64,000 bases of DNA from Bryoerythrophyllum caledonicum (Eukaryota > Streptophyta > Bryopsida > Pottiales > Pottiaceae): positions 17,699,173 through 17,763,172 of the forward strand of contig OZ020526.1 of the NCBI GenBank assembly GCA_963971425.1. The letters are read 5' to 3'. A program made the position numbers and the translations under genes. The notes beneath the pieces are model-generated. The model searched no databases. It was not told the origin of the DNA and saw only the letters and a list, made by a program, of their open reading frames with translations. The first letter of the stretch is position 1. The number at the start of each line of letters is the position of its first letter. Shown here in pieces: positions 1 through 29,655 of the stretch.

Positions 1-2898
1 GAATTTAAACATGAGACAAGCTAGAACTATAAACCGCATTCCAAAACTGGAACCAAATAAGGGTAGGACTTACTCACAACGTCTCTTGGGGACGGTCTTC
101 ACCTCTGGCTCGTCGTCATCAACCTCCAAGGGGCACTTGCGAGAGCCTCCCGCCACCACCGGTGGCGATGCTGACTCGACCTCAATAGTGTTAGGAATAA
201 AAGGAAGAAGGACTTCTTCCACCAACTCTCGATCCTCCTCCAGTGCCAAAATGTGCCGCTTAATAGCCTTGCAAGCCTTAATAGACGCCCCTTCATGAAA
301 AAAACAATTCATACGATGTTAGCATTAGAAAGCGAAAGTAGAACAGAAGAATTTTGTAATCAAATGAACTAACCAGTAGACGCTATGAGATCCAGGACAA
401 TGTCCACATCCTATGTGCAGAGATCAATCAGAGCCTCCATGAGGTTCGTAGACTTTTCTCGCGCACCACGCCATGGTACATCGCTATCCGCCCTCATAGT
501 CAGCATCTCCTGAGTAATGAGATTGGTCATGTGACCATCTGAAGACAGGTGAATCTCGTCTCTTTGCAGCTCCATCCTATCAAAGAATGAGAATGGAACA
601 GCGGGATCCAGTTTTCCCACAAAGCACTTCACAAGGAAGCACTTGTGAGTGCGCCCAGGGTGGCCATCACGGAAAAGTGACAGCCTGTTGATGGAAAACC
701 ACTTTGTCTCCTCGACAAATCTCGCCCAATTGGCCTAGGCTGAAAGTTCATTGGAGATGAACTTCGAATTCGGGTAGGACACGATAAGCGGCGCCTCGTC
801 ACGAAGCAACGCCTCAACCATCTCAAAGGCCCGGTAAATCCAATGGGATTCTTTCTTCCCTCCATCTGATAATCGGGTTGGAAGCTTGTTCCAATTCGGT
901 ACATCGATGCCGCCATCAATGTCAGGGATCGGTAAATCCTCTGGAACGTCGAACAGTACCATATCTGCCAAACCTAGAGTGCAATCCACAGCCTCATGTC
1001 GCCGATGCCGTGAGCCCGAGTGCTCCTTCAAAAACATGCGAAGCTCCTTCCAAGCTGTTGGTTCGTCACCTTCCACAACGACACTATCAAAGAGAGACAT
1101 GGTGGAGAGGGCACTCTCACACATCACCTTCGCAGCAGTAGAAGACTGAGGAAGATCAAATAACGGAATCGAGTACACCGTCTGAGAGGGCTTCACTTCA
1201 AAGATAGAAGGTCGGTTGTTAGCTGAGGCTGAAACGCCCATCGTCAAAGTCACCGCAGGAGGGACTGCAAATCCTCCCAGTTGAGTAAACAGCTTCTGGG
1301 GCCCTTCCTTCGCCACCAACGCCGCCAACTCCTTGTACCTCTCCTTCGTCTCTTTCTTCTCCTTCTTTAAACTCTCCTTCTCTAGCCAGCTAGCAGCCTC
1401 CCTCTCTTGTTCCTTGATTATTGCCTTAGCCGCTTTCTCAGCAGCCTTGGCTTTGACCTTCTCGGATTGCTCCTCAGACACTGCCAACAGAGCCGCCAAC
1501 AAAAGAAGGACGCTGCCAACAACAGGAGGAACCGCAATGGACTCGCAGGCCACTCGTAGCTGGACCTCGTCTCCAGGTGTGGGATCCACCTCCCGCATCT
1601 CCAAGTACCAGGGGCATTGGAGGAGGTGGTGCGCAGAAAATCGACGCCTCTGAGTATCTATGAAGATACACTCTGGAGCAAAAGTATCTATCCACTTTGC
1701 GAAACGGATGGGTAGATCTCCGGCTAACAAGGATCCATGGGCCACGAGCACTCTCCAAAAATATCGCATCACTGCTCGCTTCAGAACCTTCTCGCAACCG
1801 TCCTGCACCATAAACTCCTCGCCCTTCGTGTAAGAGACCCTCTTCCCGATGTGAGTAGAGAACACCTTAGTCTACAATGTCATGCTCTTTGCCTCAATCC
1901 ATTTTCCAATGGCGGGAACGGGATTCGGAAGCCCTTCAGTCTTAAGGACAATGTTGTTTTCAAAGAGAATCTCTGCATATAGCTTTTCAGACTCTTCCTC
2001 TAGCTGTAAAACAAAATCCACATAGTTAGGAATTGATCATAGTACAATCATACAAAAAAGATGTTAATGTCAAGAAAGAGTGGACCTTATCCGAGCCCAG
2101 AATGCTACCTTGTCAATCCAGCCACGAAGAACCTTATCTGACGCTGGCGAGGCAGGGAAGTTATACTCCATCCTACTGCCCTTGCTCATGTTCCACCACC
2201 TGCACCAACGCGACTTGAACTTTGGAGCTACCCTAGAAGTGGCAATGAGCTGGAGTTTCTTGGGAGTCATCTCGGGCTGCACCTGGTAGACATCAAAGTG
2301 ACGATTCACCTAAATCACAATATCAACCATTAGAGTGGAATTTACAATGCCATGAGTTAGGAAATCAATATGGATTCTGTTTAAATAAATAAAATTTACC
2401 CAACCTCTTTGAAGAAATCCTCCCCGTTTGCCAGGTTGGCAATTGCCAACATCCGAGTGAGCATGGTCTGGCACGTCGTCTTCTTCTTTTGCACAGCTTC
2501 AGTGCAACGGCTCACCAACTCTGCGGCACTTCCACGCCGATTTTCACTAACACCCATGACCAAGGTGTCCTTAAACTTTTGAATCTGCTCCTCTTGAACA
2601 GCAATCAGGTCTCGGTGTGGACAACATAAGGACGTGAAAATTTAGTGTAGGATTATCAAAAGGAGATAAATGGCAAGTGTTAGCTGGTCTCTCTGGATCA
2701 TCATGTACCTCATACATGAGCTTTACAAATGCTTCCAGAGTCATGTGGTGCTACTTTTGTTGTCCCTTCTTTGACCACTCAAGGACACTGACTTCGTAGT
2801 CTTCATCGTTGATGAGCCCCTTCAACTACTCAAACTCTAAGAGACCGAAATGTTGAACACGCTTTATGTCGTGTGTGAGGTGTTGCACGACGTAATCA

Positions 2899-4239
2899 CA
2901 CTATAAGAAACCCGTGATTTTTGTGACGTTAGCTGTGATCAAGTGTGTTTTTCAAAACATGTTTTTGCGAACGGGCCGAGCCTTGGGCTCTCGGATTCTG
3001 GTGGATGTTGCACCAAACATGGAAAAATTGGCGGAAAAACGGAGAGATGTTAGCATAAACGTATTTGTTTTGCGGGACGTCCTAGTGAACATAGTCATGT
3101 TTTAGACAACGTCCTCAGAAAGGTGACAATGCCACGTCTGCAAGGGGGTTTAGCTTCACTGTGAGTAACTTCGAGATTGTTACTGCAACCTCCCGTAAAA
3201 CACTGCCCAACGGTTAAAATACAATGGAGATGGGCTGACCCCTACAAAAATAAAAACATGGATGTCGTTACTGACATCACAAAAAACATGTTTGAGCCAC
3301 GTAGGCAAGGTAGAAATTGGATTCTTTTAAAAATGTTTGTGCCACGTAGGCAAGGTTGAAATCAGCTGCCACGTAGGCAAAGAGGATGTTGGAATAGACG
3401 TCTGGATGGACGTCTACTGTGACATTTTAATGTTTATGCTAACACGAGGCTACCACCATGACAAATCCAATAATCCCATATGGATTGTCACCACTTGTGC
3501 ATCCCATTGTATATATATGTAAGGCCTTCTCTCCTATCTCATCACACTTGAATCAAGAGTGATTCACTTTCATCCATCTATTTGGATGAATTTGAATTAC
3601 CCTTGAAACTTAAAGTGATACGGTACTTTTTGATGACATGGCGCTTCTTTTTGGTGACATGGCACTTGCTTTTGCTGACTTGGTGCTTGTTTTTGGTGAC
3701 CTCCATCTCAACGAACGTCACAGAAAACGTCATAACGAACGTCACAGAAAACATACCGTGTTAGAAATGACGTCCCAATTTACACTGTCCACAATTAATT
3801 ATTGCATTAAACTATGCTGATTGGACATGCCACGTCATATTTTAAAAAGTGACACGTCATATTTTAAAGGTGCCACGTCATAAAATGGCGGGTCCACGTA
3901 TGCAAGCCTAGTCACAATCGTATGCCACGTCATGCGCCACATCATGGGCCACATTACTAAGGGCCCGGATGAAAAAGTTGGAGATGTGGCACTGCCCGTC
4001 CATGTGGCGATGACGTGGACGCGACGTGGCAGCCACATCGCAGATTTTTAACACCTTCAACCCCCAAGTTTTTGTGACGTTTTAAAAAACGTGGGCCTGT
4101 TTTTTGAGATTTTGGCATGTTTTTCGCATGTCAATTATAACGGATTTTTTTGGACGTCAACGTTGACGTGCCGGATGCTGCACAAAACATAATTGCACGT
4201 TAGTTGCCCTGTCACAAAAAACACGGGTTTCTTATAGTG
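2899..4239. mobile_element. Non-autonomous CACTA (En/Spm-type) element 1
   Basis: The element is 1341 bp long. It starts CACTATAAGAAACCCGTG and ends with the exact inverse, followed by further inverted similarity (TTTTTGTGAC). It is flanked by a 3-bp target duplication, TCA at 2896-2898 and 4240-4242. CACTA ends with 3-bp duplications define the CACTA superfamily. Inside are repeated subterminal words such as GCCACGTAGGCAA, GCCACGTCAT and AACGAACGTCACAGAAAAC. No transposase is visible. It sits about 15 bases into exon 3 of the ParB/methyltransferase-like gene. Removing it with one TCA rejoins the reading frame. Confidence 0.93.
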
Positions 4240-5083
4240 TCAGCTTCTTTTTGCCTACGACAAAAGAATGTTATATTTTAATAAAATGAAGTCCAAAAGT
4301 ATAAGCAACTGAATCAAACGAAGTTACGAGTACCTTAGTTCCTACATACCTGTTCAAGTTGGTCATCACGTTGAGCAACATGTGACGGTTCTCGATAGTC
4401 GGCTCTATAACCACGGCTCTAACTGGCACGTGAAAGGCAACATTGGATGGGTGTAGTTGGGAAATCGCCTCGGTCCAAGCCATGTGGCGATGATTGCCAT
4501 CCCACACGAAGAAGAACTTCTTCGAAAACGCCGAGTACTCCGAACGAGTCTTCAACAACTCCTCGAACTTCCGGTCCTCTTCTACCCAAAGCTCAGACCA
4601 AGTTGACCTGTTTGCTGGTTGCACCCGCTTCTCCACGAGGGAGAAACTCTTCACTGAAACGTTAAAACATGCTGAACCCGGTCGATACCCGTTGACGAAC
4701 TCCCCCTTCAATTTCTCAACATCACTCCGAAGAGGTAATTTAACCTCAGTCATGGGCACCATCCGGCAGAGCGGAATGGAGAGATCACCTGCGATGGAAC
4801 AGATACTGCTCTGTAGGATGTCGTATGAGGTCCCACGGATAGACCTCCGCAAAGACTGAAGTGTTGAAGTCAGCCCATGCTCATCAACAAGTTCGGTGAC
4901 GCTAGCGTCGTCCTCCACAATCTCAAGGTCCTCACCCGAAGAATTCGCCGAAGGTTCCATAGCCTCAACCTGCAACTGTCATTCTTTAAAAACCGAAGTA
5001 ACAAAATGAATCCTGTTAAACCATAAAATGGAATAAAAACAAGAACTAACACTAAAAATCCATGGCCCCCAGTCCATCCCACA

Positions 5084-5790
5084 GCTCACCTCACGTATAC
5101 ATGCCACCCGAACTCCACCCCACGACCTCGCACATCCCCACACCAGTCCCACATTGTACATCTCGACACTTTTTCACTAAGCGTGACGACTTCTATGAAG
5201 GCCGTTACCAGCAAGCCTTGTGGAAAACTCAACGCGCGACCAAGAGCTCGCTAGTAGGGGGAGGATTCTAAAATTTTTATGAAAATCACTGACCCTTGAA
5301 AATGGCTTTCGGATCTGAAAGCCATTTTCAGGGATCACTGATTTTCATAAAAATTCTCAAATCCCCTCCCTACTGGAGAGATCTTTGGCACGCGTGCTCT
5401 CACTAGTTTAAAACACTCAGTTTCCAGCAAGCGCTACTGTAAGAAAGCAACGCGAGCATGCCCCTCATCGATCCCATGCTCTCCATATCATGCATTCTCG
5501 CACGAGCACTCAGCCCACCTCATGTACACAAGCCACCCGAACCCCACCCCACAACCTCACAAGCACTCACCCCTCGTGCTCCCTCACCCAGCCTCACACG
5601 CACTTACCCTCTTCTACAGCCCCTAGCCCACGACTACTCACACCTCACCCACACACAAGAGCACATGAAAACGCTTTCAACGACCTCACAATCACTCATA
5701 CACCTGTCCCTCATCCCGCACATCCCGACACTCACTCACTAAGCATGATCACTTCTCTCAAGGTCGTGACCAGCAAGGAACAACAAGGAC
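5084..5790. repeat. Duplicated block flanking a foldback in intron 1 of copy A
   Basis: The stretch at about 5084-5220 (CTCACCTCACGTATACATG, then CCACCCGAACTCCACCCC and ACTAAGCGTGACGACTTCT) is repeated, diverged and longer, at about 5516-5780 (CCACCTCATGTACACAAG, CCACCCGAACCCCACCCC, ACTAAGCATGATCACTTCT). Both end in a copy of CCAGCAAG. The block is rich in CA and CC. It lies between the first two traced exons of the accessory gene, so it is intronic. No coding function is seen. Confidence 0.6.
5232..5397. repeat. Foldback (MITE-like) hairpin, arms about 75-80 bp
   Basis: The left arm (from ACGCGCGACCAAGAGCTCGC through AATTTTTATGAAAATCACTG to GAAAATGGCTTTC) is repeated in inverse after a five-base loop (GGATC near 5311-5315). 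The central 40 bases of each arm are almost identical; the outer part is diverged. No protein is encoded. It may be a foldback MITE or a hairpin RNA source within the intron. Confidence 0.75.
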
Positions 5791-5872: not shown

Positions 5873-7347
5873 CTGCTCTCACATTCAGACTCGCTAGATT
5901 TAGATAATCCACCACGAAGTAAAACCGAAGCAAGCAAATTCACGATTTAGGGTTAGGCAAAGTGAGGCGACTCATACAAGGAAACACTATGCGCAATGTT
6001 GGCTGTACACAATGCAGTGTGATGCACGTCAAGTTACAACCAGTCTCCCCACCTTACGTATAGAGTGCACACATCTTCAAAACCCTATCATGAGCGTAAC
6101 CCAAGCGGATCCCAAGAAGTGACTAATCCTTGCACGAGCTGTATTGCTGAACTCGAGAAGTGACGAACGAATCTGTAACCCTAGTTCTCGAGTTCAGTAT
6201 GACTGGAAGGAGCTCATTGACCCTGACGAACCATGACGAAACAAGTCGCTCATGATCTAAGAACAATTTTAGGGTGATGAAAGACCCCCGCATGGTGACA
6301 TACCTGATTTGGTGGGTCCCTTCTGGTTCTAGTTATATATCCACGAGGTCCTTTGCGCCTCTTCGATGAGCCGTTACTCCAATACCGGATGCCTTTGATG
6401 AGGAACCGTTTCCAACCAATGTGGGCCGTGATGGATTTACACGGCTCCCATATTCTTCACTTGAGTCACTATTTTGGCAGTCAGACTAGCCTTTACTGCC
6501 TTCTGATCTCTTATCTACTTGCAACGAGGTCTGTGTGGTACCGGATCTATGATACATTCTCACTCTCTTATCTTTTATAGAGTATGCCTCTTCAAGATGC
6601 TCATGAATACTAATGCAGGTGCAAGACTCCTGAATAACAAACCGGAAGGTCAGAATCAAAGGGACCTATTCACTTTCTTCTATTCAGTCAAATCCAGTGA
6701 TATAAATAAATTGAAAAATACAACATACCTGAATCCTTGATTGGACGGGATCCGGTCTCTGGTGGATACTTGACAAATTCATAAATCGTTCGCCCGATTC
6801 CGATGTTTATCACTTCCTGGTTCTGAGCAGCCAACACTGACTACTATCATTGCCGCTCCTTTCGAGCCCGCGTCTGCTTCGGATTAGAGAAAATTGTACT
6901 TCGCTTCTTCCGTCCACCTATCTTAGTCATCATCTACACGATAGCCAAACTAGCCCACCACACTTTCTTTCAACATCAGAAAGATCCTATGAACCCAAAC
7001 AACCCAATGCAATACTCCTTCATTAAGGTATAAGAGCCCTTGTTCTACTCTTTCTTGCTTCCGTTCACACCAGAGTCCTACTATATATTTTAATGCTCTT
7101 CTCAGATCTAATAACTTACACGTTGTCGACTAGCTCTACAATAGACGTCTCACATAATCTTCTGATGGCGCTGTCAATTACGTGGCACTATTTTAGTTAA
7201 GCATCTTCATATTTGAATAATGCTAGCTAGAAATGCTAAATTTCAATTCATGACCCATTCCAACGGGACAAGCAACAATATAAGTAATCGGTGTTCCAAC
7301 TCACGACTTCTCTATTCCAAATTATACATGTATTTTAATTTGTAGCA
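5873..7347. other. Spacer between the divergent genes of MULE copy 1
   Basis: This 1.5-kb stretch separates the first traced exon of the accessory gene from the transposase frame. It should hold both promoters. I see no convincing coding region and no clear equivalent of the small basic ORF found at this place in copy 2 (22861-23220). Confidence 0.4.
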
Positions 7348-14622: not shown

Positions 14623-14632
14623 TATGTGGACT
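14623..14632. repeat. Target site duplication, left (TATGTGGACT)
   Basis: The ten bases are identical to 29646-29655 and directly abut the terminal inverted repeat. A duplication of 9-11 bp is what Mutator-like elements produce. Confidence 0.9.
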
Positions 14633-15443: not shown

Positions 15444-17695
15444 TCAAACACCGTAGTGTTTTAGGAGGAGAATCTGGAGGACTCGCTTGATCTCATTCCA
15501 ACTGAAACTAGGAGAGTGCATGAAGACATTGACGTTTTCGTCTAATCCACATACTACGGTAAAGATATAGTAAAGGTGCTTGCAGTAGGTCCACGCACCG
15601 CGTTTGCTTAGTGATTTCTTTGACATCTCAGTAAAAGATGGACAATCACAGGACGGGAATTGGCCAATCGTCAACATATATCGTGAGACCTTCGAAATGC
15701 TACTGGATTGTAAAATAACAATGGAGCCTAGAGCAGGAGGTGGTACCATAAGAATGTCGCAAATATTTGCGGCTAGTGATAGCGCCGAGGCACAACTGTT
15801 GTGATGCTTAGTGGTAGGCGCTGTAGGATTCCTACGGACGGCCTTCCCGAATCTCGTGGTGGGATGGTCTGAACGATTGGAGATGGAGGATAGTCCGACA
15901 GATTCATTGATATGCCCTCACCAAACAATTGGCAAGGAGACATCTGTACACGCTCGGCAAGTCTGAAGCCGCCGCCCTCAAGAGCAAGTATCTCCGATTT
16001 GCTAAGATTTGTGCCTATCTTCACTAGCCATATATCTGGGATAGGGGGTTTTGAAACGACCCACGGTCGTTTAGAACTATGGACACAACGATGGATATCA
16101 TCTCTACAGAAGAAGAATTGCATCTTATCCATTCTAGTCTTCTTGTAATTGTCCATGAGGCCAATATAAGTAGGAGCAGCTGTAGGTCGTCCCCCTTGCA
16201 CAATCTTAGCAACACATTTCTTTCATCCATGCATGGCAAAGCAAGCTTTAGCTGAGGTCTTTGGGAGCCTTGCGATGTGCCACAACCCCTCGTCGCAAGC
16301 AGTCTCTTGAATAGATTTCACGTGATGAATAGGAGGCAGAACAATAGGACTTTCAAAGGAATCAACCGCTGCAGGAGGAGGAATTGGCTTAGGTGGCAAA
16401 TCAAAGTCGTCAATTGTGAGATCAACGATCTTCAGGTCATCTCGTCGTCTCCTAAGTCGTGGACGGGAGACACTAATCTTATCAGGGCGATGAGAATCAA
16501 ATTCTGAGCTAGGAAAGAGGTCTGCTTTTTGTTTCAAAGAAAGGAATTCTTCTTCACCTTCCAAGTGAGGATCCCGGGTGCATATACTATAAGAAACCCG
16601 TGTTTTTTGTCACGTCCTGAATCATGTCCCAGGAGACATGTAGACATCCGAATTTACATCCCTCTGACGTACCAATGCGTGTAACACGCTAAAACGCGTG
16701 GGGACATCACCAAAAACGCGAGGACATCCCTGCGACAGGGACGATTTTTGGAGATTTTGGGAGGCTGGAAATGGTGCCAACTGGGTGCCACGTAGACGAC
16801 ACCTAAGCGGCAGGATGACGGGCAGTGCTACATGACCGGGAATTTCATCCGATCCAATGGTGACATGGAATCTGACGTGGCGTCTGACCTGGACCCGGGA
16901 AAGAGTGGTGTGGCAGGCCACGTCAGCAGAGATTTGCGTGGTTTTTTTTTCAGATTCGTGTTTGCGGGGACGTCATTGGTAACATGGCTATGTTTTTTAA
17001 GACGTCCCGGGTTGACGTGGAGATGTCCTGTTCGACGTCTACGCCAACGCTACCTAGATTTTGATGCTGATTTCGTTGAACATCGCCATCCCCTAGAGGA
17101 CGTGGCGATGGACATGATCGCGTCCTCCAATACGTTGTCGACCCATGGTCGTCGGCAATGAGGGTGTCATCACAAACATCTCAAAGAACTTATGCGTATC
17201 TGACGTGACATCCCCTGATGCATCGTATTGCTGACTCTCTGTATGTGATGGTGTTTTGGAGGGACATCGAGAGATGTTGTACAAGACATGAATACGTTGT
17301 ACAAGACATGAGTATGTTGTACAAGACATGAGTACAAGACATCAATACCTCATCATACATGTAACATATACATTCATCCAAATTCATGCTTACTGGCCTA
17401 CTTGCAAATGTGGTAATATGATATACACGCAATTTAAAATATGAATGCCTTCCACTTTATAGTCATTACATAGACAAATACAGCATACACAGTACTCAAA
17501 ATTGAACATCGCTAAAGTGTCACAACATCGTAGCCTAAAACATTGCCGTGTTTGTGAACATGTCCAGGAATGTCTCCATAGACACGGGGATGTTTCAAAA
17601 GACGTCCCTGCGTTTCCTAAGTGCTGCGGCATACGTCTTCTACAACATGGTCATGTCTATATGTCGCTCACAGCACATTGCATGTCCAACACTGC

Positions 17696-17830
17696 ACCTC
17701 TAACCTCTACACTCTAAACTCTAACCTCTACACTCGAAACTCTAACCTCTACACTCTAAACTCTAACATTCTAACTTGTAAACTCAGTCTACACTCTAAA
17801 ACTCCAACCTCTACATTCTAAACTCTAACT
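17696..17830. repeat. Minisatellite inside CACTA element 2
   Basis: Units of about 21 bp, ACCTCTACACTCTAAACTCTA, are repeated about six times with small changes. Confidence 0.85.
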
Positions 17831-17886
17831 ACTTGGAGAAATGAAGGCCAAAGTGAACTTTGTGCAACCTCAAATTCTACTTAAAG

Positions 17887-17973
17887 GTCTCATGACCTAA
17901 CTATGGCTGCAGCAGCTAACCCTAGCCGCCTCATAACCTAACTATGGCTGCAGCAGCTAACCCTCGCCGCCTC
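17887..17973. repeat. Two-copy tandem repeat of about 44 bp
   Basis: CCTAACTATGGCTGCAGCAG followed by CTAACCCTAGCCGCCTC is repeated at once, with AG changed to CG in CCTCGCCGCC. It lies in the interior of CACTA element 2. Confidence 0.85.
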
Positions 17974-20900
17974 TATTCATCCAATGAACTTGACGAAATT
18001 CATCCTACTTGATGGTTATGTTTTGCAAGACACGATGATGTTTTCTAGGACATGTCAATGTTTTGCCAAACACTGCTGATGTTTTCAGAGACGTCTCTGT
18101 GGGATGTCCTCAAAGATATGTAGACGTTACTCGAGACATCTTCAATTGGATGTGTCAAGTGACGTGGACCTATACACAGAATGACGTGTCACCTTATTCG
18201 ACATGGAGTTGTGTTTGCCATGTAGATGAAGTGCTGTAAACTACAAAATATATAATATGTCCACATGGGTAAGCCACCAAGGACTTTACAAAATCACCCT
18301 AAATTCCTTATAATTCTGGTTTTGGTAGAAAAGTGATATTTTAATATTATATTAATTAATAAATATTATTTAATATTTAAATATACAGTACTGAATTTAA
18401 TATGTCTGCTTTAATTACAGAATAATCAGTTTTTATAAAATATTATTATAATATTAATTAATATTTTGTATTTTTAATATTTAAAATTTTATTTTATTTT
18501 GGAAACCATTGTGATACGAAGTGGACAAATCAAAAATTTCAGAGGATCAAAGTTAATAAATGTAATCAGAATATTCTTCAATTTTATATACTTTATTTGT
18601 TTTATTTTATTTTTAAAAAAAATCTTGTTTTATAAGGCCTGTGCCCTTTTTTTTCTCCTCTTGCAGACCGCTGCCCGTTTCGCTGTTTTTTTTAACGTTG
18701 GGCTGCTTTCTACCTTGCACAGCAGTAACTTCGACATTCTTACCCCAGGTGAAACGCTTGTCCGCTGCCAGCATGACAGTTTTGCATCACCCAAGATGTC
18801 CTCGATGACGTCCTCGGAGACGGGCGCGTTGTTGGAGACATCGTCGCGTCTCCTATTTCGCACGCGCGTTTCGGGACCCTCCCACCTCCACTGTTCATTA
18901 TTGACGCGTGGACATCCTCACGTTCACGGGGACATTACTGGCTAGCTCCAAGACATCAAAAAAACACGCTGACATGATTAAGGACATAACAAAAAACACG
19001 GGTTTCTTATAGTGATATTTTGTCTCCACCAAGCATTTTGGCGAGAGTTGCTTGAAGAACTTTTGCATTGCCAGTGCGTTGAGCGGTACGATGGGCAATA
19101 CGGAGTCGAAGTTCGTCTTTGTCAGGACCAGTTCCGGGCTTCTCACCTTTGAGAAACTGATAGTACGCAACAACTTGCATGAATGCGCGGACCATGTCAT
19201 CAACAGCGGCTACATAGAGATCGTTCCCTTTTTTGCCAGATTGTTGCAACCATTTGTTGTGAACTGTCTCGGCCAAATTGCAGGATGGCATTTCTGCAAG
19301 CTCGGCATTAGAAAGATCCTGCAATGAAGAAGATAGATCAGAAAGGACTTTGCAAATTAAGTTTGGTTCTATCCAGTAAGTTCTAGTGAAAGATTCATAA
19401 AGACAACAGTAGAGTAGGAAAAAACGTGGTTGATCGGAGCCCATATCGGCAACACCTCTTCATTGGTCTCCTGTAGAATCATTCATTCACAAAAAAATTG
19501 ATTGCTACATAATGCAGAGCTCTTACAAGCAGCCGATGTCGGCGGCTTGTATTTCACAGAAAGATGGACGGAAAAGAAATCACACTGAATAGGCAGCCGA
19601 TATCGGCGGCTCAAAATTAGGCGAGGAAGAAACCCAGAAAACATATATTGTCAGGAAAACATGAATAAAAATTAAAAATAAATAAAAATAAAAATTGAAA
19701 TGAAAATGTGGGCCCAACAGCAACAAAGATTGAAAAAGTTCAATTGGCTAAGCAACACAGTGCCGAACTAACATAGTAGGGCAAAAAACTAAAATATGCT
19801 GAAAGTGAATAAGAACTATGAATTTTCCTACGATAGCAGAAGGTAAAATAACTAAACATAGGAGAAAACAATGTAAAACTTGGAAGCCATAAAATTTGGT
19901 AGAATTAAAATATGTACAGGGAATATAGTGCAAAAGAACTTACAAGTTGCATGAATCCGCCCCATTGTCGATATCTGAAATGCCAAAAAGCAAGCCACAA
20001 ATCGAGTCTCGAAAGCGCTTCCTTCGTTGCCGCACTAGATGACAACCACCATGCTCGGATTGCCGGGTATCGACCCTGGGCCTCTTCAAGAGATATAGAA
20101 TTTTTGTAATCCTTGTAGAGACGACAATGTTGGTCTTGAAGGTCGGCCCTGATGTCCGCTTTAGTGTGCTTCTCCAGTGATTGTGTCCAGTGAAATAGGC
20201 AAGTTCTCTCGCGGTTCTCCATTGGCAGTGTGGGGTCTCTACTACCGTACAGAATACGCACCGCATTCCAGTTAGCTTGTGCGCTGTCCGCCATGAATCC
20301 TTTAAAATTTGGGTCAGCAATATCGTGCCTCCTTGCAACAGAATTTAGACTCTTCCAGAACAGCTGTTGAGCAGCAACATCCTCTGATTGCATATCGCAC
20401 ACAGCAACTGTCATGACTCGGCAGAACGTGGAATCGTAAAAGTGACAAGCCATGGTGGTCCAGTCCTTGACACGTTTTACATGGTCAAACATCATCCAAG
20501 AGGCTTCCAAATCGCCCCCGGGTTGCATTCGCCTAACTGAATCAACACCGCATCCAGGTCCAACCTCAGACATCTTAAAAACGAATACCTTGTCCAACTC
20601 TGAGCCTTGTCCTGGGAAATGGTTCTCTTGAATAAATGCCCACTTACTTGAATCCCTCAATTTTGTTATACTATCCACTACTCCAAACCGATGCAAGTAT
20701 CGAAACGTAGTCACTTCATTACGAATATTCGGAGAGGACATCTGCTTAAACTTGTCAAGAACTGGAATGAGTTCATCGAACGGAAGAACCGTTTGGGGAA
20801 CACCTTCCGAGGATAACAATAACTCCCCCAAGTACTCTTTACTGGCTTCAAGGACAATCGCTGATCTTGTAGCAGATGGAGTCCCCTCTACTTGTTCGCC

Positions 20901-22792
20901 TATTAGAGAACAAAGTTTTGCTGAGGAATCTCTATAATTTCTCGTCTTCACTGGATGGCAATGCACACCGAGATGAATGCAAGCTCCTATCATTTGGCGA
21001 TCTCCATGGACGTAATAAATCTTTGCCAGATAGGTTGCGATGCAAGTAGGGGACATTTGGCAAATAGCGCAAACAACAGTGGATTGTGGAGGAGGGTCAC
21101 AACCTGGAAAGAATGGGGACGTCGCACTTCCATCCCATTCAGTTTCATTCTGATGTGATGTTCGATGAACACGCCTAATATAGTCACAGGTAGTATTTGT
21201 GCATCTTAAGTGCCCAAGACAAGACGACGTTCGAAAAGCAAGGTTGAACTCAGATTTAATATGCGACGTTGTTGTTCGAGTCCATGCATGGCCGTCGTCC
21301 CTCTTATCCATTCCATGAAGCTGACCAGCCTTAGATGATTGCGGATACTTCTCCATTGGATGAAGTTCAAATATGACATTGCCATCAAAATCGGAAGGCA
21401 CATACTCAACTGTCTTAATAGAAATTGTATTGTAATCTAACTTGCTTAGAATTGACTTTGCTTCCTTGCGACTGCTAAGAACTCGCAAGCAATGGAGTAT
21501 ACTTTGATTCGGTGAGAGGGGAGGTTTTGAACTGGTTTGTCCGCTTGCCAAGGACGGGGCACTGCCAACTATTGTCGAGGCTGCCACGGAATCCGAAGCA
21601 GAATTGGGCGTAGTCGAATAGATGCACTCATTATCAGAAGACGGTACCGATACCTGAATCACCGGTGTACGTTCCGAGGATGGCCCCGAAGTGGAAGGAT
21701 GAGGGTCTATGTTCTTGTACTCCGTAGATGGAACAGACTGGAAAGTATCCGTGGTCGAATAAAACGTAGGCTCCGAAGTCGAAGGCCCAGGGATTGGGTA
21801 ATCACTAACAACAGACGAAGTAAGCTGAGGACCACCGAGGTCTACCGGAGATTCTACGCTACTCTTCGATGGGACCGGACATGTGCGGTCGTCATCCGAG
21901 TCGTCACTAAGAAGAATGACCGGATGATCAGGTGGCTCTAGTTTCACCTTCCGAAGCAACAGGATCACATCAGCAGATCCATAAACTCGGTACCTCCCTG
22001 GCTCCAACAATCAAACATCACCCCTCTCACGTTGACAAGAAACCTGTGCTACTGTATGAGAGATTGTCTTTGACCCCACGTCAAGAACTTCCTTGTCTAC
22101 ATGCAGAGAACTCTCTAAAATATGAAACCGCGATGCAAGACGACTGCTACCGATAGTGGAGAATCCATCTGCACCTAGAGGAAATGAAATCGGAACTGAA
22201 TGATCATCTGATCTAATTAGAACGCATTCAGAAATGTCAACAGGATGAGAAGCCATTGCCTACGCATGAGAAGAATCTGTGACGAAGAAAACAATAAAGT
22301 GAAGGTTAGTCTAAAGATTGAGGGGGACTCCATTTGAGAAGTGTGAGTTTATCAAGTTGACTCAAGAGGGTGCTCAACAAAATAATCAATTCCAGGAAAT
22401 CTTTGATAAATAGGTGGTTGGGGGCTAGATTTGAATTGGTTTGCAAGTAATTAATTAGGACCATAGAAAATTAAAAATACATGAATGCACTGAGTTGTAG
22501 ATTGTTTAAATTATTATATCTGCATTCAGTACAACAAAGTTTGAATGACTAAAGAAGGTGGTGCTCGATGTATGTTAATCTGAAGTGGCGGCTTCCAAAA
22601 TTCGATATCGATATCCCAATAGATTCAAAGAGTCAGATATGAAAATCGCATGAACTTGTACGGTTATTACTGACAGTAGTGAAGTTATTTTTTTCAGGCC
22701 CAAATCTTCCAAAAACGGCTGACAATTACGACAAAAAGATCTTCTTTGCTTTTGTGCACCTTCTAGATGGAAATCAAACGTCAAAAACATAT

Positions 22793-22800
22793 TATATAAG
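22793..22800 (+). promoter_or_regulatory. Candidate TATA box for the small basic ORF
   Basis: TATATAAG lies 61 bases before the ATG at 22861, a spacing that would give a start site near 22825 and a short leader. It is predicted only from sequence and position in the spacer between the divergent genes. Confidence 0.45.
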
Positions 22801-22860
22801 GATTCAGCCTAAGGAAGCTTGTGCTGTTGAGAGCGAGTAGAGTCCGACTGATTGTATAAT

Positions 22861-23220
22861 ATGCCAAGAAGGCAAAAGAGAAAGGCTGTGTATTTTACCA
22901 ATCCAAAGCAGTTGAAGAGGTCGAGGCTGATGAGAAAGTTGAGATCTTATTATAGAGTGGAAGACGCTGGAGATACTGTAAAAGCACTAGAATTTGAAGA
23001 AGCGGAAACCAATTGTCTAACAATGGAGGATAGTCTAGAAGAAGAGATGCTCAGTCCTATAGAGATTGGAAAGACTTCTGGAGAACTGGAGAAGATGAGT
23101 TTGAGAGAAAGCGCATTCGAAAGTACTCATGCGACACTAGATTGTATCGATGGCCAATATCCATCACAGTGGTCCTTTCGACAATCAGGTGATACACCCA
23201 GAACCAATGTCTGGTACTGA
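22861..23220 (+). CDS. Small basic/acidic hypothetical protein of MULE copy 2
   Basis: The frame encodes 119 residues with no internal stop. It starts with a basic, nuclear-localisation-like N-terminus (MPRRQKRK, then KQLKRSRLMRKLR) and turns acidic in the middle (EFEEAETN, SLEEEML). It has no recognised domain. It lies between the transposase, which reads away on the other strand, and the ParB/methyltransferase-like gene, which reads in the same direction. It could be a separate third gene, or the first exon of the accessory gene. The presence of a TATA-like box upstream favours a real transcript. No counterpart was found in copy 1. Confidence 0.4.
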   Translation: MPRRQKRKAVYFTNPKQLKRSRLMRKLRSYYRVEDAGDTVKALEFEEAETNCLTMEDSLEEEMLSPIEIGKTSGELEKMSLRESAFESTHATLDCIDGQYPSQWSFRQSGDTPRTNVWY

Positions 23221-23772
23221 ACAAAACAATTTTAGAATGTCTCGTCAGAAGGATTTGCAGAAACAGATTATTGTTTTAGATGTCCCACTTTAATGCTGGG
23301 TCTTCGTGCTTAGAAACGATCAATCAGTAGCCCATAAAAATCTAGTCTCATTAAACATTTTAACTCTTCAGAATGAGAATTCCATGCATATTGAATGAAA
23401 TAATAAACTCGCCTAGTTCTAATGAACGAACCCATTTCTACTTGGTGTACACTGCAGTATGTCCTCCACTTCTCTTTTGGAATACACTAGGGTTTGTGTG
23501 AAGATAGCAAGGCGCATATGAGTGAGGTGTCTATTTTTCCTTTGTTTAATGCAACGCCGTTGTTGAAGAGGATGTAGGTCATCAAACTTAGTGTGAAGGT
23601 CAGTAACTAACTTGTTGTCGTGCAACACATGCAGTTGCAACCATGGCGAGGAGCGAAAGTGAAGGTCTGCAGACATTGAGATGGAGATCGCGACCCGCAC
23701 CGCAGTAGGTAAGACACAAATTTGAAGTTGGGTTTTCGTAATGGACTAGTGTCAATGTCTGTCAAGACGACA

Positions 23773-23935
23773 GCCATGGCGAAGAGGACCGAAACCCTCT
23801 TCGCCATGGCCATGGCCGTCGTCGTGGAAGATGACGGCCACGGTGAGGAGTCTCCTCCCCATCCTCGCCGTGGCCGTCGTCACAGTAGCGGACGACGGCC
23901 ACGGCGAGGAGGGGCGTTGCCTCTTCGCCGTGGCC
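23773..23935. repeat. GC-rich serial hairpins upstream of the accessory gene
   Basis: Three short inverted repeats follow each other: 23773-23787 with 23796-23810, 23833-23849 with 23862-23878, and 23897-23911 with 23921-23935. In addition 23862-23881 is a perfect 20-base inverse of 23891-23910 with a nine-base loop. All share the core GGCCACGGCGAGGAG or GGCCATGGCGAAGAGG. The Arg/Gly-rich open frame across this stretch (23722-24060) looks like a by-product. Confidence 0.8.
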
Positions 23936-24119
23936 ATGGCCATGGCGAGGTAGGCCGCCGACAGCGGCTGCCTCCTGGGGGTGGCATTTGCGGGTGTGGC
24001 AACAGCCAGAGCGAGCCTGGGCACAACTTCCACGCTTCTATCTTCGTTGTATGTGCATAGTTGTTGTAAAGCTTTGTTTTGGTTTATTTATCCTCTTTTT
24101 AACAGCCCTTGTTTTTCAG

Positions 24120-27100
24120 AGGATGAGCCTTCTGAGGTGCCGAGTAGGTCGACGCAATCAGAGGATCTGATGGAGTTATCGCAGCGTGAAATACTTGAAT
24201 CAGGTTTTTCATTGTGATTTTTCTAAAGCATTATTGTTGTTTTTATTGGTGTGGAGCTTTCCTTATGATTGTTTTGTGTTCTTTGGTTTAGATACTTTGG
24301 AGACACAGGATGGTGAAGCTACTTAGGACGATGCAGATTCAGAGGAGCATGAGGAGATGTCCGCTGAGGATCTTCGAAAGGAGATGGACATGATGGTGGT
24401 TAACGAGTCTGTGAATACAAATGTTGTACTTGACAGGCTTCGATTTAAGCCAAAGAATAAGTCTAAATTGAACATTCCTCTATGTAGGATGAAGGCTCTT
24501 GCAGCCGTGAGACCGTACCTCAAGAATGATGTCATCGCACTTAGTGCTCACTTTGTTGGTACAGGCTTTATGGATGGGCATGGGATGTTTTATGTCGCCA
24601 TTCAAGACAATGATGGTAAGACTCAGGATGTGGCTGCTAGCGACATAGCTAAGTGGAGTCAAGCATGGAAGAACGCTAATGATGCATTGGAGCAGGAGCT
24701 GTAGAGTGAGAGTGCATGGAAGCAATTTTCAGGGAAGATGTTCTTCGTTTGGGATGGCAATCATCGACTTGCTGCTTGGATGCCTATAATTAATCGTGAT
24801 CATGATGACGATCCAACGTGGCACTATTCTGTCAAGTCAATTGTGTTAAATGTTGAGGGTCAAATTGGTTCTCTTCTATCGGCAGTTCACCAAGTGAATT
24901 GGTAATTATTTTACTTTGTTTCTCTTTTCTTTCTTAGTTAAATATCAATTTACTAATCAAGTTCTTGTGGAGTGTTCACGCGAAACCAAACCGGCCATGT
25001 TAAAACGAATCTCGTGCATAAACTCTATCGCCTTCAGGGAATTGCTGGTCAACCTCTCAAATACTTCGAGGACCTTGTCTCCAAGCAGGAAATTGCAGAC
25101 GTGGAAAAGAAGCACAAGACAAATCCAAATACTTGGTATACATTGACTATTGATTCACTAGTCGAGATTTTATACCAGGTACGAAATATTACCTCTGTCT
25201 CCTCTTGTTCTGCCTTTCCAGAGTATTTGTAACCATTATGTCTGCCTCTTATGATATTTGCAACCCATGAGGCACTCCATTGGCGCAGCCGCTATCGGCT
25301 GCCTCGAAGAGGTTGTACATCAGATATTGGTGCCTCTCGGTTATTGATTTTTTCCCTGTGCTAGTCACTGGCAATCAATCTGCATTTTTCATGGTTTAAC
25401 AGCAACAACTTGGTGATACGGTGGCACATGCGACTCGAATGTTTCAAGAGAAGTATCCATAGAAGTCATCAGAGTGGACAACGGGTAAGCTGCACGAGGC
25501 AATCGGTAAGGCAGTGAAGCAGGCGAAGAAAGAAATGTGCAACGAATTGAAGAAGCAATTGCCGATTGCAGATCCCAAGCACACCCCTCAGTTCCTTGAA
25601 CAAGTACGGCTTCATTATGAGAGTCGTGAGGATGACCCAGTGATGACTCAAGAAAAGCTTTGGTACCTTTCAACCTCGGCGATGGACGCCGGCACCAAGG
25701 TGAAATGGTTGGATCGTTGGAACAAGCCAGCTTCCCTGTGAACTGCTGTGAAATTCCCGAAGGCCAAGTTTCTGGACCATAACTTTCCTGGCTGGCTAAC
25801 AAAGGCGACCTGGTGGGCACAGGTTTGTTTCTAATTCCTCGAATTATCAAATTCAGAATTTCTTTTTTTTAATATCCATTGTTATGTATATGCAGCTTTC
25901 ATCTGAAGTGAAGGCCTTGTTTGATTCAACATTATTCGATTAACTATCATCCAGTTGGAGAAAGCGCCATTCCAACGATTGAGGAATGGGTGGAGAGAAT
26001 GCGAATTCAGCTTTGGGACTTGGCGTTTCTTGATGAGTTGAGTTCCAAGGGAGTGCACAAGAATCGCAGTGCAGAGTTGCAGGATAGACTCTCCCTGGCC
26101 GTGACTCGTGTCATGTACCGATACTTCTTCTACATTCTTTATCCAAGGAAGGCGACAATGAAGACGCCTGCTTTCTTTGAGAGCTATTTGGATCGAGATT
26201 CTGAAAGTTGCATGATTACAGATGTCATCTCAAAGAAGTGGACTCATCAGCATTGGCAGAACTGCGGGTGGTACTTGGATTGCCCACTAACAAAGCCACC
26301 GTCGTTTGATGTTGCACTCAGGAACCGCATCCAGCCAGATTTAGGAGGCAATGAAGTTGTGGTTCCACCCCTTGAAGCTGCAGCGCCAGTGAAGCAACCT
26401 CGAGGATCAAAGCGGAAGGCTGCTGCTGAAGAGAAGGCTAAGAAGGAGAAAGTTGATTTGGAGGCAAAAGCCGCATCGGAGGCTGAAGCTGCTTTGAAAC
26501 TGAAGGCTGTCGCGGTTGAAGCTGAAGCAAGTATGAAGCGCCTTAACGAAGCTGCGATTGCGAAGATGACGGCAAAGCAGGCAGCTCACGAATTGGCGTT
26601 CCCCGTCGTGGACATGGATGTGAACGTGGAAGTCAGTGACAGAGTTGATGACTCTCCATTGCCGTATGTTGCTATCCGGATCCTACACTCTCCGCCGTCA
26701 CAGTTGCAAGGCGAGTGCAGTCCCTTGGCGTTACTTACTCAGAAATTGAAGAAGAAGGTGGCTACAGGTACATCAGCTGTTGTCAGTACTATGACTCATC
26801 CTTCTTCCATCTTAGTGGAGCACACAAGCATACGTGAGATTATGGAGAAACTACTTGAAGTTCACGAGTGCCTCACAAAGCTTAACAACTTTGGGCTCGA
26901 GGTAGAGTCCCTCCAATCAATTTCTGAATTGATTTTCATCATCTGTTTCATTTTCCGCCCTCCGCATAATTTATCAATGACACCCTCTTTAGTTTCGGTT
27001 GCCATTTCTCTAAAATTAATTATTTTTTGGCGTTTATTTGGGTGGCCTCTCTACTGCGCCTTGGTACTTATTCATGTCTCTGCTCAGTAGAACACTACTT

Positions 27101-28521
27101 CCATGGCATTGGGGCCATCTATTCAACCTTTAATTATACATTCTTTCCATTTCAAAGATTAATGCTCACCTCTCTTTTCTCATTCTTTGGTCTTTTGCAT
27201 TGTTTGCAGTTGAAAAAGGAGTCTGGGAGAGCCGCACTCTCCTTATACTGCAAACATTCTGGATTCGATTTGATTATGGTAGATTTGAAGAATGGCCTCC
27301 CTATTCCTGGAATCTCTTTGGACGCAACTTACATTCCACCTTGGAATGAGTACTCAGTCAAAGATGTGGATTACCTGTTCGAATTTGCAGAGAATTTTCT
27401 CTAGAAACAGGGTGCCATGCTGGTTTTTGCCCCAGACGTTCCTGACATTCGAACAAACGTCTTCTCATATGCGGCGGCCTATAACTTCAAGTTGTATCGA
27501 GAGTGGTGGGGAATTAATGAACTTCCTCTTACTGCTTATGGAAATCCAGGAGTTAAGGTTTGCTTCAGTGTCCAATTCACATTGTCTCCTTTATTTTCCT
27601 CCGTTCCTTGCTAATAATCTTTATTTCAATTTTTGTTTCTAAGTTCATTCTAATTTGTGTCCTTGGACTATTTCAATGTTGACGTTTTCGAATTCTTCTC
27701 TTTATCCACAGTGCCTTGGACTGTGATCGTTTCTCGATCACAGTCAATAAAGACCTCGTGGAGTTTGGGTTCGGGGTCTCTGATTCGGACGTCCTCTTCA
27801 ACTTCACCTCGTCTCAGTCTCAGTCCATGAATGGTTCCGTTCCTTGGAGAGGGCTCGCGAGAAAGACCCGGTCTTCCTCCAAATGCTCATTGCGGCACTG
27901 ACAAAGGGAGGAGCTGTAGTCCTCGACACTACCGCCATAGTTGAGGTACTGGTGGACTGTGGTTTACATTGTCTATTTCTAATTTTGCTTTGATTACCCA
28001 TGATGAATGTTGTTTTTATGACTAGGAAATTCTATTCGAGCTTGCACAACCATTGGCCGTCATATTGCTGCCCTTGAGGATGACTTCCTTGTCTTTGAAG
28101 CAATGCTCAAACCGTTTAAGACTATCGAAGAGGTCATTTCCGTCCAGGCTTCTACTTCAACGGCTCGGACTGCACCTAATATTGATGTTCCCATCCGTCA
28201 AGTCACACGAAGAAACCGCTTGAGTAAGTAAGTTCTCATTTATTTCCCTTCTCCTTTTGTTAGGCCGTTCCAATTTTCATTCGTATCTACTGATCCGCGT
28301 TATGCTACTGCAGACTAATGGCTGCTACCGTGTCACCCGTCAAAGACTTCGTCATGGCTCCATGGGATGCAGAAGTCGCTAATTTACAAGCAGCGACATC
28401 GTCTCCGACTTCTTCTTCGTGTCCTCTACGTTTTAACAGACATGTTCGTAGGTATATTGACGATGAGGCAGAAGTAAACTTGCACATCTTGTCACCTAGT
28501 TCGGACAGTTCCGATTTCTAG
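24120..28521 (+). pseudogene. ParB-like / DNA-methyltransferase-like accessory gene of the MULE, copy B
   Basis: Nine exons are traced: 24120-24203, 24292-24901, about 24940-25178, 25403-25822, 25896-26901, 27210-27557, 27712-27945, 28026-28227 and 28314-28521. Upstream exons are uncertain. In order they show an acidic N-terminus, a ParB/sulfiredoxin-like block (IPLCRMKALAAV, FFVWDGNHRLAAW), a helical block collinear with copy A, a coiled coil (about 26340-26590), and a methyltransferase-like block. The last has FDLIMVDLKNGLPIPG, GAMLVFAPDVPDIR, EKDPVFLQMLIAALTKGGAVVLD and NSIRACTTIGRHIAALEDD. Position and order fit beta-class amino-methyltransferases (motif IV first, then motif I), but DPPY is replaced by VDLKN. 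Stops lie near 24325, 24702, 25459, 25739, 25941 and 27402, and there is a one-base shift near 27850. A further exon ends in SSDSSDF. It has introns that copy A lacks. Confidence 0.7.
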
Positions 28522-28800
28522 ATCTTCTCAAGCCTCATTGCTCCCTCTTTTTGAGTTACATTTTCTATTCAATCCATGGCCATAAACAACGTTTTCTTTG
28601 CGTTTTTACTTTTTTCCAATATTGCCTTGCATTGTTGTGCTTTTATTCTTTCGTATTCATCACTTCGATTGAGAAGGTGAATGACAATATCCAACTTCAT
28701 TCAATTGAAGAGCTCAAGCCGAAGACAATAATCCATTTAATAGAATTCTTTTCTTTTTGTAAAATAAAATTTTGTACTCCTACATTCTTTAAGATCTCAA

Positions 28801-28848
28801 TACATACATTCATACATACATACAAACATATATATATATATATTTATA

Positions 28849-28889
<41 letters not shown>

Positions 28890-28909
28890 TTATATATATA
28901 TATATATAT
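28801..28909. repeat. TA-rich microsatellite
   Basis: TACA units grade into about 85 bases of (TA)n with TTTA interruptions. An apparent 179-residue frame spanning it (28551-29090) is mostly poly(Ile-Tyr) from the repeat. From 28911 to 29565 I see no gene. Confidence 0.95.
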
Positions 28910-29565
28910 CAATGTAGGCATTCTACCGGATCCAATCCCATCTCCTCCCGAACTTCGTATTATAGTAATACTGGCAATAAAACCCTTCATTCTGGTGCCT
29001 TTTTTCCCCTCTTTTGAATTTCATTTTAATACCACGTTCTCAATTGTAAGGAATTCTCTACATTCCTCTTCTTCTGCATCCTCTGTTTAGAAGCGCACTT
29101 TGTCTTATTCTATCAAACCTTTTCAAAAAATTTGGTTTTTAAGTTCCCCTTCGTCTAATCTAATTCCTATATTTGTATTTCTTATATTAAACAACACACC
29201 TAGTCGCAAATGAAATTTTGAATTGATATAAATTTATAGTCCAACTCTTTAAAAATCCACTAACTTGTCCAAATAAAAGCAAATTTCATTTTGAAATTTA
29301 ACTTTGCTCCCCTACTTTGGTTCAATCGATTGATTTCTTCTACTCAAAATGTGGCCACGGTCATCGGGTAGTACTATCCATGTCAACCTCAAGCCTACTT
29401 CTAATTTCAATTCAAGAAGCAAAGTAGTACATCATGACAACATTTGAATCTCCAGATGTGATCCAATGACCACGGCTATAGGACCCTATCCTAATCCTTG
29501 GTTTTTTTTTTTTTTACTTTATACTCAAAGTTCCTCCATACTTTTACTTTTTGTATTAAATCTCG

Positions 29566-29645
29566 ACTTTTTTGGGCTCTTCGCTCACAAACCAAGGCTC
29601 GCCGCTCTCCGCTCACGGTTCTGCGCTCGCAAAATAGCTTTCCCC
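29566..29645. repeat. Right terminal inverted repeat of MULE copy 2
   Basis: It is the inverse of 14633-14712, ending GCTCGCAAAATAGCTTTCCCC minus its first base at 29645. The outermost seven bases differ in part between the two ends, the next 14 are identical. Confidence 0.92.
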
Positions 29646-29655
29646 TATGTGGACT
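29646..29655. repeat. Target site duplication, right (TATGTGGACT)
   Basis: Perfect ten-base match to 14623-14632, directly after the terminal repeat. Confidence 0.9.

Follow-up and report, generated by a model that had tools for sequence, protein, structure and literature searches.

This locus raises the question of whether a gene joining a ParB-like to a methyltransferase-like region belongs to the transposable elements in which it appears, and what its product might do for them. The window (the whole stretch of 64,000 nucleotides analysed, from the moss Bryoerythrophyllum caledonicum) contains two element copies in opposite chromosome orientations, each with a transposase gene and the accessory gene head to head. 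This arrangement, as given in the preliminary description, is borne out by the exon positions and strands. The features are as follows (window coordinates).

4978..70, minus strand: accessory gene of copy 1, with its ParB-like exon at 4349-4960 and the methyltransferase-like part at about 70-1100
7339-10491, plus strand: copy 1 transposase gene, decayed
11260-11301, minus strand: copy 1 right terminal inverted repeat; the element ends at 11308
11309-11318: copy 1 right target duplication, CTCTACAAAG
14623-14632: copy 2 left target-site duplication, TATGTGGACT
14633-29645: copy 2, complete element of 15,013 bp (~15.0 kb), with terminal repeats and a perfect 10-bp target duplication
14640-14709, plus strand: copy 2 left terminal inverted repeat, 70 nt, 87% against the right repeat
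22259..15444, minus strand: transposase gene of copy 2, with its main exon at 19905-22010 (701 aa) and a CxC..CxH exon for the C-terminus at 15444-15917
24291..28231, plus strand: accessory gene of copy 2, with a ParB-like exon at 24291-24900 and methyltransferase-like exons at 27210-27557, 27713-27945 and 28025-28231 (exon limits are a reading of GT-AG sites)
29569-29638, minus strand: copy 2 right terminal inverted repeat, 70 nt, 87% against the left repeat
29646-29655: copy 2 right target-site duplication, TATGTGGACT

The limits of copy 2 were set at 14633-29645 because TATGTGGACT adjoins both ends, which confirms the earlier placement of both genes within one pair of terminal repeats and a perfect 10-bp duplication; the repeat itself, previously put at 80 bp, exists but measures 70 nt plus 7 outer bases. 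Copy 1, too, is complete; its left end lies at genome position C15:17698113, 1,060 bp (1.06 kb) outside the window. Its target duplications, CTCTACAAAA and CTCTACAAAG, match at 9/10 positions, and its terminal repeats are shorter and weaker (21 nt at 90%). A third, intact element elsewhere in the genome, E1, has terminal repeats of 43 nt (93%) and a perfect 10-bp target duplication. Boundaries and duplications were thus established for three elements, each of which encloses both genes.

Copies 1 and 2 represent distinct subfamilies, with amino acid identities in same-frame segments of about 34-59% for the transposase and 25-42% for the accessory protein, and in-frame stops and frameshifts mark both as decayed. 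Nested CACTA-like elements split the accessory gene of copy 1 and the decayed transposase gene of copy 2. The accessory gene of copy 2 contains TAG and TGA in frame as well as frameshifts. Several in-frame TAG codons had raised an alternative genetic code (TAG=Q); the presence of in-frame TGA codons as well, and of copies free of stops, led to its rejection.

Long terminal inverted repeats and target duplications of 8-11 bp are hallmarks of the Mutator superfamily, and termini of this type are present here (long inverted repeats with 10-bp duplications, perfect in copy 2 and E1). No Pfam MULE/DDE transposase profile matched the 24 homologues, their consensus or the C-terminal half of L001, a stretch carrying a stop-free close relative of the copy 1 transposase, and no Pfam SWIM domain was matched in the transposase. 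A D..D..CxxH and CxC..CxH layout (FDH, MADS, CLFH; CSCP..CKH) was seen by eye in A1, L001 and the window, using motif definitions from general knowledge. Of the original label "MULE" the terminal repeats and duplications are retained; since the transposase lacks a profile match, the elements are called Mutator-like. L001 was the sole confirmed transposase match in the search of genome contigs and sits in a cyanobacterial MAG record, where it is probably plant contamination. In viral contigs, the transposase-pattern search matched 12 stretches, with 0 confirmed.

Large transposable elements do capture genes in the manner of Pack-MULEs, and the accessory gene could be such a passenger or a chance neighbour. 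The two genes were therefore placed relative to each other across the 437 Mb host genome, where every locus list holds the best-scoring entries out of thousands of first-look candidates and is no census, and pairing counts are lower bounds for the loci listed. Among the matches listed, a transposase exon (89 exon-2 and 79 exon-1 rows) lies within 20 kb of 57/81 accessory loci, head to head in 57/57. With the exon-2 list alone, 50/81 listed loci are paired against 0.66 expected, and chance neighbourhood was rejected. In the second clade, compared against 79/126 accessory rows, an accessory gene lies within 20 kb of 11/59 listed transposases (expected 0.43), head to head in 10/11. A listed transposase is missing for 24/81 accessory loci among the matches listed; of two that were inspected, one lies beside a partial divergent transposase and the other beside fragments only. 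The gene pair and its order are kept in two diverged clades at low identity, and both genes are enclosed by duplicated target sites in three elements; against this, capture or coincidence is very improbable. The accessory gene is a true component of the element, as first proposed, on the evidence of copy 1, copy 2, E1 and the genome-wide pairing.

Many closely similar copies retain open frames: among the matches listed, 53/81 accessory exons have no internal stop, and 25 of the 30 accessory loci fetched (the 30 top-scoring) have a nearest neighbour at least 99.1% identical, and therefore spread recently. The family is large and apparently recently active. Joined, incomplete models of the accessory protein reach 961 and 1015 aa.

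The ParB-like exon has a conserved P-motif, DGNHRxxAW. Its GxxRxxA form with arginine is present, DGNH being invariant and R reaching at least 90% in alignment A5 (12 rows, four A2 rows having been left out); among the 15 rows of A2, P0108 lacks the stretch, P0109 reads DGSHR and P0107 has Y for R. Beyond the P-motif, searches with Pfam, PHROGs and NCBIfam detected no ParB similarity, nor did hhalign once the motif had been masked. Taking out the insertion before the Pfam search (five shuffles as controls) brought no support either, and neither did hhalign to SopB/P1 ParB. An hhalign match to viral ParBs picked by DGNHR (86% over 14 columns) was not counted because it was lost once the motif was masked; 9/14 of the viral proteins so picked match ParB_N at E 0.01 or better. 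The name ParB is thus upheld by the motif and not by profile similarity outside it. The same domain order occurs in L102, a viral ParB-methyltransferase fusion. Searches with tblastn against phage and plasmid sequences gave nothing significant (best plasmid match E=0.07, a methyltransferase adjoining a HindIII-family endonuclease), and a PDB sequence search returned nothing relevant.

The C-terminus has a beta-class amino-methyltransferase fold in which motif IV precedes motif I. Aligned with 32 viral beta-class sequences by hhalign, it gave a probability of 92% (P 8e-7 local, 8.6e-8 global), against 0.3 for the ParB-like part as control. The consensus matched PF01555 at E=2.5e-4 (21.5 bits, under the 26.7 cut-off); single members matched at E 0.008 (copy 1), 0.01 (P0094) and 1.5 (P0095), with no match for P0093 and copy 2. 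The hhalign and consensus results, the latter below cut-off, support the methyltransferase-like half proposed at the outset.

Motif IV was compared in 36 accessory sequences (30 genome loci, mostly of one subfamily, P0093-P0095, copies 1 and 2, and L221). The typical [DNS]PP[YFW] is matched by 0/36, and an aromatic residue (Y, F or W) is missing from the fourth place in 36/36, the spellings being DVPE (33), DVLE (1), DIPD (1) and DLKN (1). The viral relatives have the typical motif in 27/32 and D[IL]PY in 5/32, so that V or I in second position counts as ordinary and, judged from these alignments, the missing aromatic is the only unusual point. The acidic residue is found again in the second clade, there in one undecayed gene only (L221).

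These data bear on whether the protein could be an active N6-adenine or N4-cytosine DNA methyltransferase marking the element's own DNA. The fold and the order of motif I are kept, the D[IL]PY relatives leave the motif just one residue off type, and the corresponding Ectocarpus protein is predicted, in the available extract of PMC12477816, to make 4mC or 6mA. Opposed to this are the fourth place of motif IV in every sequence and the recurrence of the acidic residue in L221, and we consider an active methylase rather unlikely. That the protein alters the element's own DNA methylation, one of the roles offered in the preliminary description, is doubtful here because an acidic or other residue replaces the aromatic in all sequences.

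The intergenic region of the copy-1 clade contains palindromes centred on a 16-bp core, CTTTCGGATCCGAAAG, with 357 sites in the genome (reversed control 0). The shared core was found in the copy-1 clade only, and the palindrome of copy 2 and its close relative L220 differs. In the window the palindromes are:

5232-5395: copy 1, intergenic, with arms of 82 bp (82%) around the centre CTTTCGGATCTGAAAG, which differs from the 16-bp core at one position
23836-23935: copy 2, likewise intergenic, GC-rich and imperfect (80%), missing from the ungapped scan listing

L220 has a better palindrome at the same place as copy 2, and in L219 the ungapped scan found no intergenic palindrome. In E1 seven copies of the palindromic core lie upstream of the accessory gene, 0.5-3.6 kb from its start. 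A tandem palindrome array spans 522 bp, with perfect arms of up to 64 bp. Of the first 50 of the 357 sites, 34 are upstream of a listed accessory gene, at a distance of up to 10 kb, and 0 are downstream. On C1 and C2, where core sites are fully covered, an exact core lies no more than 10 kb upstream in 7/13 of the accessory loci listed, and 6/13 lack one; two of these six have stop-free exons and a listed transposase. Stop-free loci with no exact core include C2:32707693 and C2:30188240. The enrichment arises partly because the elements are copies of one another.

In the boldest reading, the palindromes of the copy-1 clade may be a parS-like array. The ParB-like, methyltransferase-derived protein would then load on the 16-bp palindromes (CTTTCGGATCCGAAAG) by its own promoter, spread over the element and control chromatin or transposition, its methyltransferase domain acting as a non-catalytic reader; such a ParB-parS-like module in land-plant transposons seems to us distinctly unlikely. 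The palindromes could instead be hairpin or inverted-repeat features arising from replication slippage or feeding small-RNA silencing, with no role as binding sites. The long perfect arms and the tandem array could fold and make small RNAs, and the absence of a palindrome from L219 and of the exact core from the six loci is consistent with this origin. The diverged L215, however, keeps the core as TTCGGATCC(G/A)AA in two palindromes whose arms are unlike those of E1 yet still palindromic, as expected of a recognised core. The hairpin origin is quite possible, with doubt somewhat outweighing belief.

Taken together, the sequences suggest a family of Mutator-like two-gene DNA transposons of 12-15 kb whose accessory protein would bind DNA, probably without methylating it, and act on its own element as a regulator or anti-silencing factor, an account we favour tentatively, with belief and doubt nearly balanced. 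A full copy has two divergent genes within the same terminal repeats, which would share a central regulatory region. The accessory gene would encode a DNA-binding protein with a layout akin to prokaryotic and viral ParB-methyltransferase fusions. Its ParB-like domain would bind nucleotide and recognise the element's DNA, or spread on it, from central-region sites (the palindromes, where the copy-1 clade is concerned), and its methyltransferase-like domain would bind SAM or DNA, having probably lost methylation. The protein may thereby play a role like that of mudrB or VANC by different parts, and not as a methylase.

The two-gene layout, which recalls MuDR, and the accessory loci without a nearby full transposase would also fit a protein that helps transposition in the manner of mudrB, or one that is a structural relic without a regulatory role of its own. 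A relic is opposed by the open frames in 53/81 listed exons and by the recurrence of a non-canonical motif. From the sequences here, helper and regulator roles are not separable, and we regard helper or relic as unlikely.

If the regulator reading holds, epigenetic or DNA-clamp proteins that transposons encode for themselves would account for the escape of large elements from silencing, and a parS-like array, if true, would be a eukaryotic counterpart to the bacterial DNA-clamp system. As the family is recent, abundant in one sequenced plant and represented by stop-free copies, it allows a direct test of the published idea of self-modification; from the missing motif IV aromatic, the prediction is that the accessory proteins here do not modify their own element.

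Among known systems, MuDR comprises mudrA and mudrB, and VANDAL elements bear VANC. The moss elements share with them Mutator-type ends and a second gene with a putative element-directed role, but their partner protein is not known to be related to mudrB or VANC. Bacterial parS is a 16-bp palindromic site; the moss elements resemble ParB-parS in the P-motif and in several 16-bp palindromic cores by the gene, a likeness of motif and site architecture only, and no ParA was seen with them. Green and red algal elements with such accessory genes have reportedly been described by Iyer in 2011 and Petroll in 2025. No report of such a gene in a land plant was found in the open-licence PMC literature at listing and abstract level.

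The partnership, at first thought unfamiliar, is already published for algal transposons. In its available extract, PMC12477816 (2025) describes the brown-algal Ectocarpus Sola1-1_Ec32, which carries a ParB and DNA-methyltransferase gene on the strand opposite the transposase; the paper also cites instances from green and red algae. The moss elements are therefore a variant and no new kind; new here are the palindromes in the intergenic region of the copy-1 clade. As described in that extract, the Ectocarpus element is likewise a large DNA transposon with ParB-like and amino-methyltransferase domains (1104 aa), the likeness of this and the algal proteins being one of layout, set beside the moss protein by description only. 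What sets the moss elements apart is a land-plant host, 10-bp target duplications together with long terminal repeats, first-look candidates numbering in the thousands, the missing motif IV aromatic and the palindromes. Phage and bacterial fusions of ParB with N6_N4-methyltransferases, as outlined in the extracts of PMC12704722 and PMC5512222, share the N-terminal P-motif and C-terminal beta-class methyltransferase; in contrast, P-motif and motif IV are 539 and 623 residues apart here against 142 (about 400-480 more), and the moss gene has introns, no motif IV aromatic and a home in a eukaryotic transposon.

The window (64 kb, 44% GC) was placed at G000:C15:17699173-17763172 in the host genome, which was searched over 437 Mb and 894 contigs. 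Element boundaries were located for both window copies and for a genomic relative, E1:

Copy 2, window 14633-29645: element bounded by TATGTGGACT duplications and 70-nt inverted repeats (87%)
Copy 1, left end, 1,060 bp beyond the window: starts CAGGATTGCTATC
Copy 1, right end: window 11308
E1, genomic stretch C15:12855611-12876209: element of ~14.96 kb

Copy 1 measures ~12.4 kb, with weaker terminal repeats (21 nt, 90%) and target duplications (CTCTACAAAA left, CTCTACAAAG right) matching at 9 of 10 positions. E1 has 43-bp terminal repeats at 93% and a perfect CATGCCCTCG duplication; its transposase and accessory gene lie divergently on opposite strands, and internal stops are absent from the long accessory exon and from both long transposase exons. 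The preliminary description called these elements MULEs, to which the ends and target duplication conform; because no Pfam transposase model was matched among 24 homologues, "Mutator-like" is used here in place of MULE.

The copies themselves carry insertions: a nested CACTA-like element of 1.34 kb (window 2899-4239; CACTATAAGAAACCCGTG termini, 3-bp TCA duplication) in the copy 1 accessory gene, and, in the copy 2 transposase gene (window ~16586-19014), another CACTA-like insertion whose termini are related (43 nt, 93%). Elsewhere in the window, a DYW-type PPR open frame of 964 aa (44463-47354; Pfam DYW E=3.4e-43) suggests a land-plant host and contains internal repeats of 303-bp period at 92-95% identity, and two 721-bp direct repeats (96%; 55120-55840 and 60500-61220), 5.4 kb apart, resemble the LTRs of a retrotransposon.

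Genome-wide pairing was assessed among the best 81 scored of 3471 first-look candidates for the accessory exon (query P0093, an accessory homologue), the best 89 of 4257 for the transposase second exon (query from L001) and the best 79 of 3049 for its first exon. Using both transposase lists, an exon lay within 20 kb of 57 of the 81 listed accessory loci, head to head in all 57. With the exon-2 list alone, 19/20 best-scoring accessory loci and 17/20 best-scoring transposase exons were paired, dropping over the whole lists to 50/81 (0.66 expected) and 50/89. Two of the 24 unpaired accessory loci were inspected: L215 has a partial, divergent transposase, and L216 only transposase fragments within 8 kb. 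The query source L001 (CADCWO010000080.1), a 4.1-kb contig within a cyanobacterial MAG, holds a family transposase with two long stop-free exons and is probably contamination.

For the second clade, the best 59 of 3303 candidates for transposases of the copy-2 type (query P0002) were compared with 79 of 126 matches to the copy-2 accessory exon, the window's own and 46 others being left out. An accessory gene lay within 20 kb of 11/59 transposases, head to head in ten; the exception is an extra transposase near an accessory gene that already has a head-to-head partner. The other 48 had no partner in this subset of 79 of the 126 matches, and one of these, L221, proved on inspection to have a head-to-head accessory gene with long open exons, matching the copy-2 model piecewise over residues 14-1014. 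None of the 40 of 59 P0002-type transposases compared with the 81 copy-1-type accessory loci was paired. Many near-identically scoring P0002-type loci in the host share five in-frame TGA codons; this could be a stop-carrying variant that has been copied widely, or the end of the match could run into an intron. In the protein search, contigs of sizes 104370 and 362076 were common to the transposase and ParB-like match lists, a hint of linkage in other assemblies. The accessory gene had been proposed as part of the element, with a majority of members lacking it, or accessory genes lying mostly outside such termini, named as contrary evidence; over the part of the family covered, the proposal stood. 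Copies without a full transposase exist.

Both window copies are decayed, and in copy 1 the accessory gene carries TAG twice where relatives have W and once where they have Q, which would fit C-to-T loss in methylated DNA. For 25 of 30 fetched accessory exons the nearest neighbour is at least 99.1% identical (up to 100%), and 53/81 listed exons have no internal stop; from these sequences, amplification looks recent.

Joined-exon models of the accessory protein comprise 961 aa for copy 1 (X at three stops) and 1015 aa for copy 2 (six X). By profile comparison, the C-terminus is assigned to the beta-class amino-methyltransferase fold: the family consensus matched PF01555 (E=2.5e-4, 21.5 bits, under the 26.7 cut-off) and the CcrM model (E=0.0034), and hhalign against 32 viral sequences (28 distinct) gave a probability of 92% (P=8e-7 local, 8.6e-8 global), compared with 0.3 for the ParB-like part as control. 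Singly, PF01555 matched weakly (copy 1 0.008, P0094 0.01, P0095 1.5) and did not match P0093 or copy 2. Among 30 genome loci, the top-scoring and mostly of one subfamily, motif I is kept (VLDLTASTG or VLDITASTG in 26 by pattern match, then GASIKAC in 27) and the motif IV position reads DVPE in 29 and DVLE in one. It is DVPE also in P0093-P0095 and copy 1, DLKN in copy 2 and DIPD in L221. Viral relatives have [DNS]PP[YFW] in 27/32 and DLPY or DIPY in 5/32, so the second residue is ordinarily variable; the unusual feature, judged from the alignments, is the acidic fourth residue. The methyltransferase likeness first described is upheld for the fold, with motif IV atypical at that residue, and the C-terminus is probably a SAM-fold domain lacking methylase activity. 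That the protein instead methylates its own element's DNA gains from D[IL]PY being ordinary among viral relatives, and is rather unlikely.

The N-terminus conserves (V/I)WDGNHRxxAW (exceptions P0107, P0108 and P0109), a match to the P-motif of ParB, in which the arginine is required for NTP binding according to PMC12704722. The ParB assignment is supported by this motif; beyond it no likeness was found by Pfam, PHROGs, NCBIfam or hhalign with the motif masked.

In E1, 5.9 kb separate the genes and include a 522-bp tandem repeat (6.2 copies) bearing long palindromes, seven of which have CTTTCGGATCCGAAAG as a perfect core; in one of the seven the arms are perfect over 64 bp. L216 has three palindromes in a 483-bp array, and copy 1 has one:

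Copy 1, window 5232-5395: palindrome, core with one mismatch

In the diverged L215, TTCGGATCC(G/A)AA is retained by two palindromes with arms unlike those of E1 yet still palindromic, and there is a third, weaker match. A GC-rich palindrome of an unrelated kind occurs in copy 2 (there at 80% only) and in its relative L220, and in L219 no palindrome passed the threshold applied. The 16-mer core occurs 357 times genome-wide (reversed control 0). Listed accessory genes account for 34 of the first 50 sites, which cover C1 and C2 in full: all 34 fall in the 10 kb upstream of such a gene and none downstream. Three more have just a listed transposase nearby, and 13 stand elsewhere. An exact core stands within 10 kb upstream of 7/13 listed accessory loci on C1 and C2, and is absent there from six, including C2:32707693 and C2:30188240, both stop-free and transposase-paired. 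Because elements are copies of one another, this enrichment shows the site to be a property of one element branch and is no demonstration of binding.

The six loci without an exact core add weight to reading the palindromes as hairpin or inverted-repeat features rather than binding sites, a real possibility somewhat short of even. Loading of the accessory protein on the palindrome array and spreading over the element, with the methyltransferase domain as a non-catalytic reader, is doubtful. The best explanation, at not quite an even chance, is an element-encoded, ParB-like, methyltransferase-derived regulator or anti-silencing factor that is probably non-methylating. Ordinary D[IL]PY and these six loci together lowered the weight of the last two readings and raised that of own-element methylation and of hairpins.

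The pairing of ParB and DNA-methyltransferase, initially taken as unfamiliar, already has an algal precedent, which reduces its novelty: PMC12477816 describes a 21.5-kb Sola1 element in which a 1104-aa protein, ParB-like and DNA-methyltransferase, is encoded on the other strand from the transposase, and similar proteins in green and red algal transposons. By the literature searched, the land-plant and Mutator-like setting, altered catalytic motif, scale and recent spread, and palindromes remain apparently new. ParB fusions with N6_N4-methyltransferase are enriched in phages, according to a 2025 survey (PMC12704722), and a viral sequence, L102, encodes one:

L102, 9527-10723: ParB-methyltransferase fusion, 398 aa, with DGNHR and DPPY

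Like the accessory protein, it has DGNHR, then motif IV (here DPPY), then motif I. Descent of the accessory gene from a viral or phage-type ParB-methyltransferase fusion is plausible, and L102 is a possible model for its origin.
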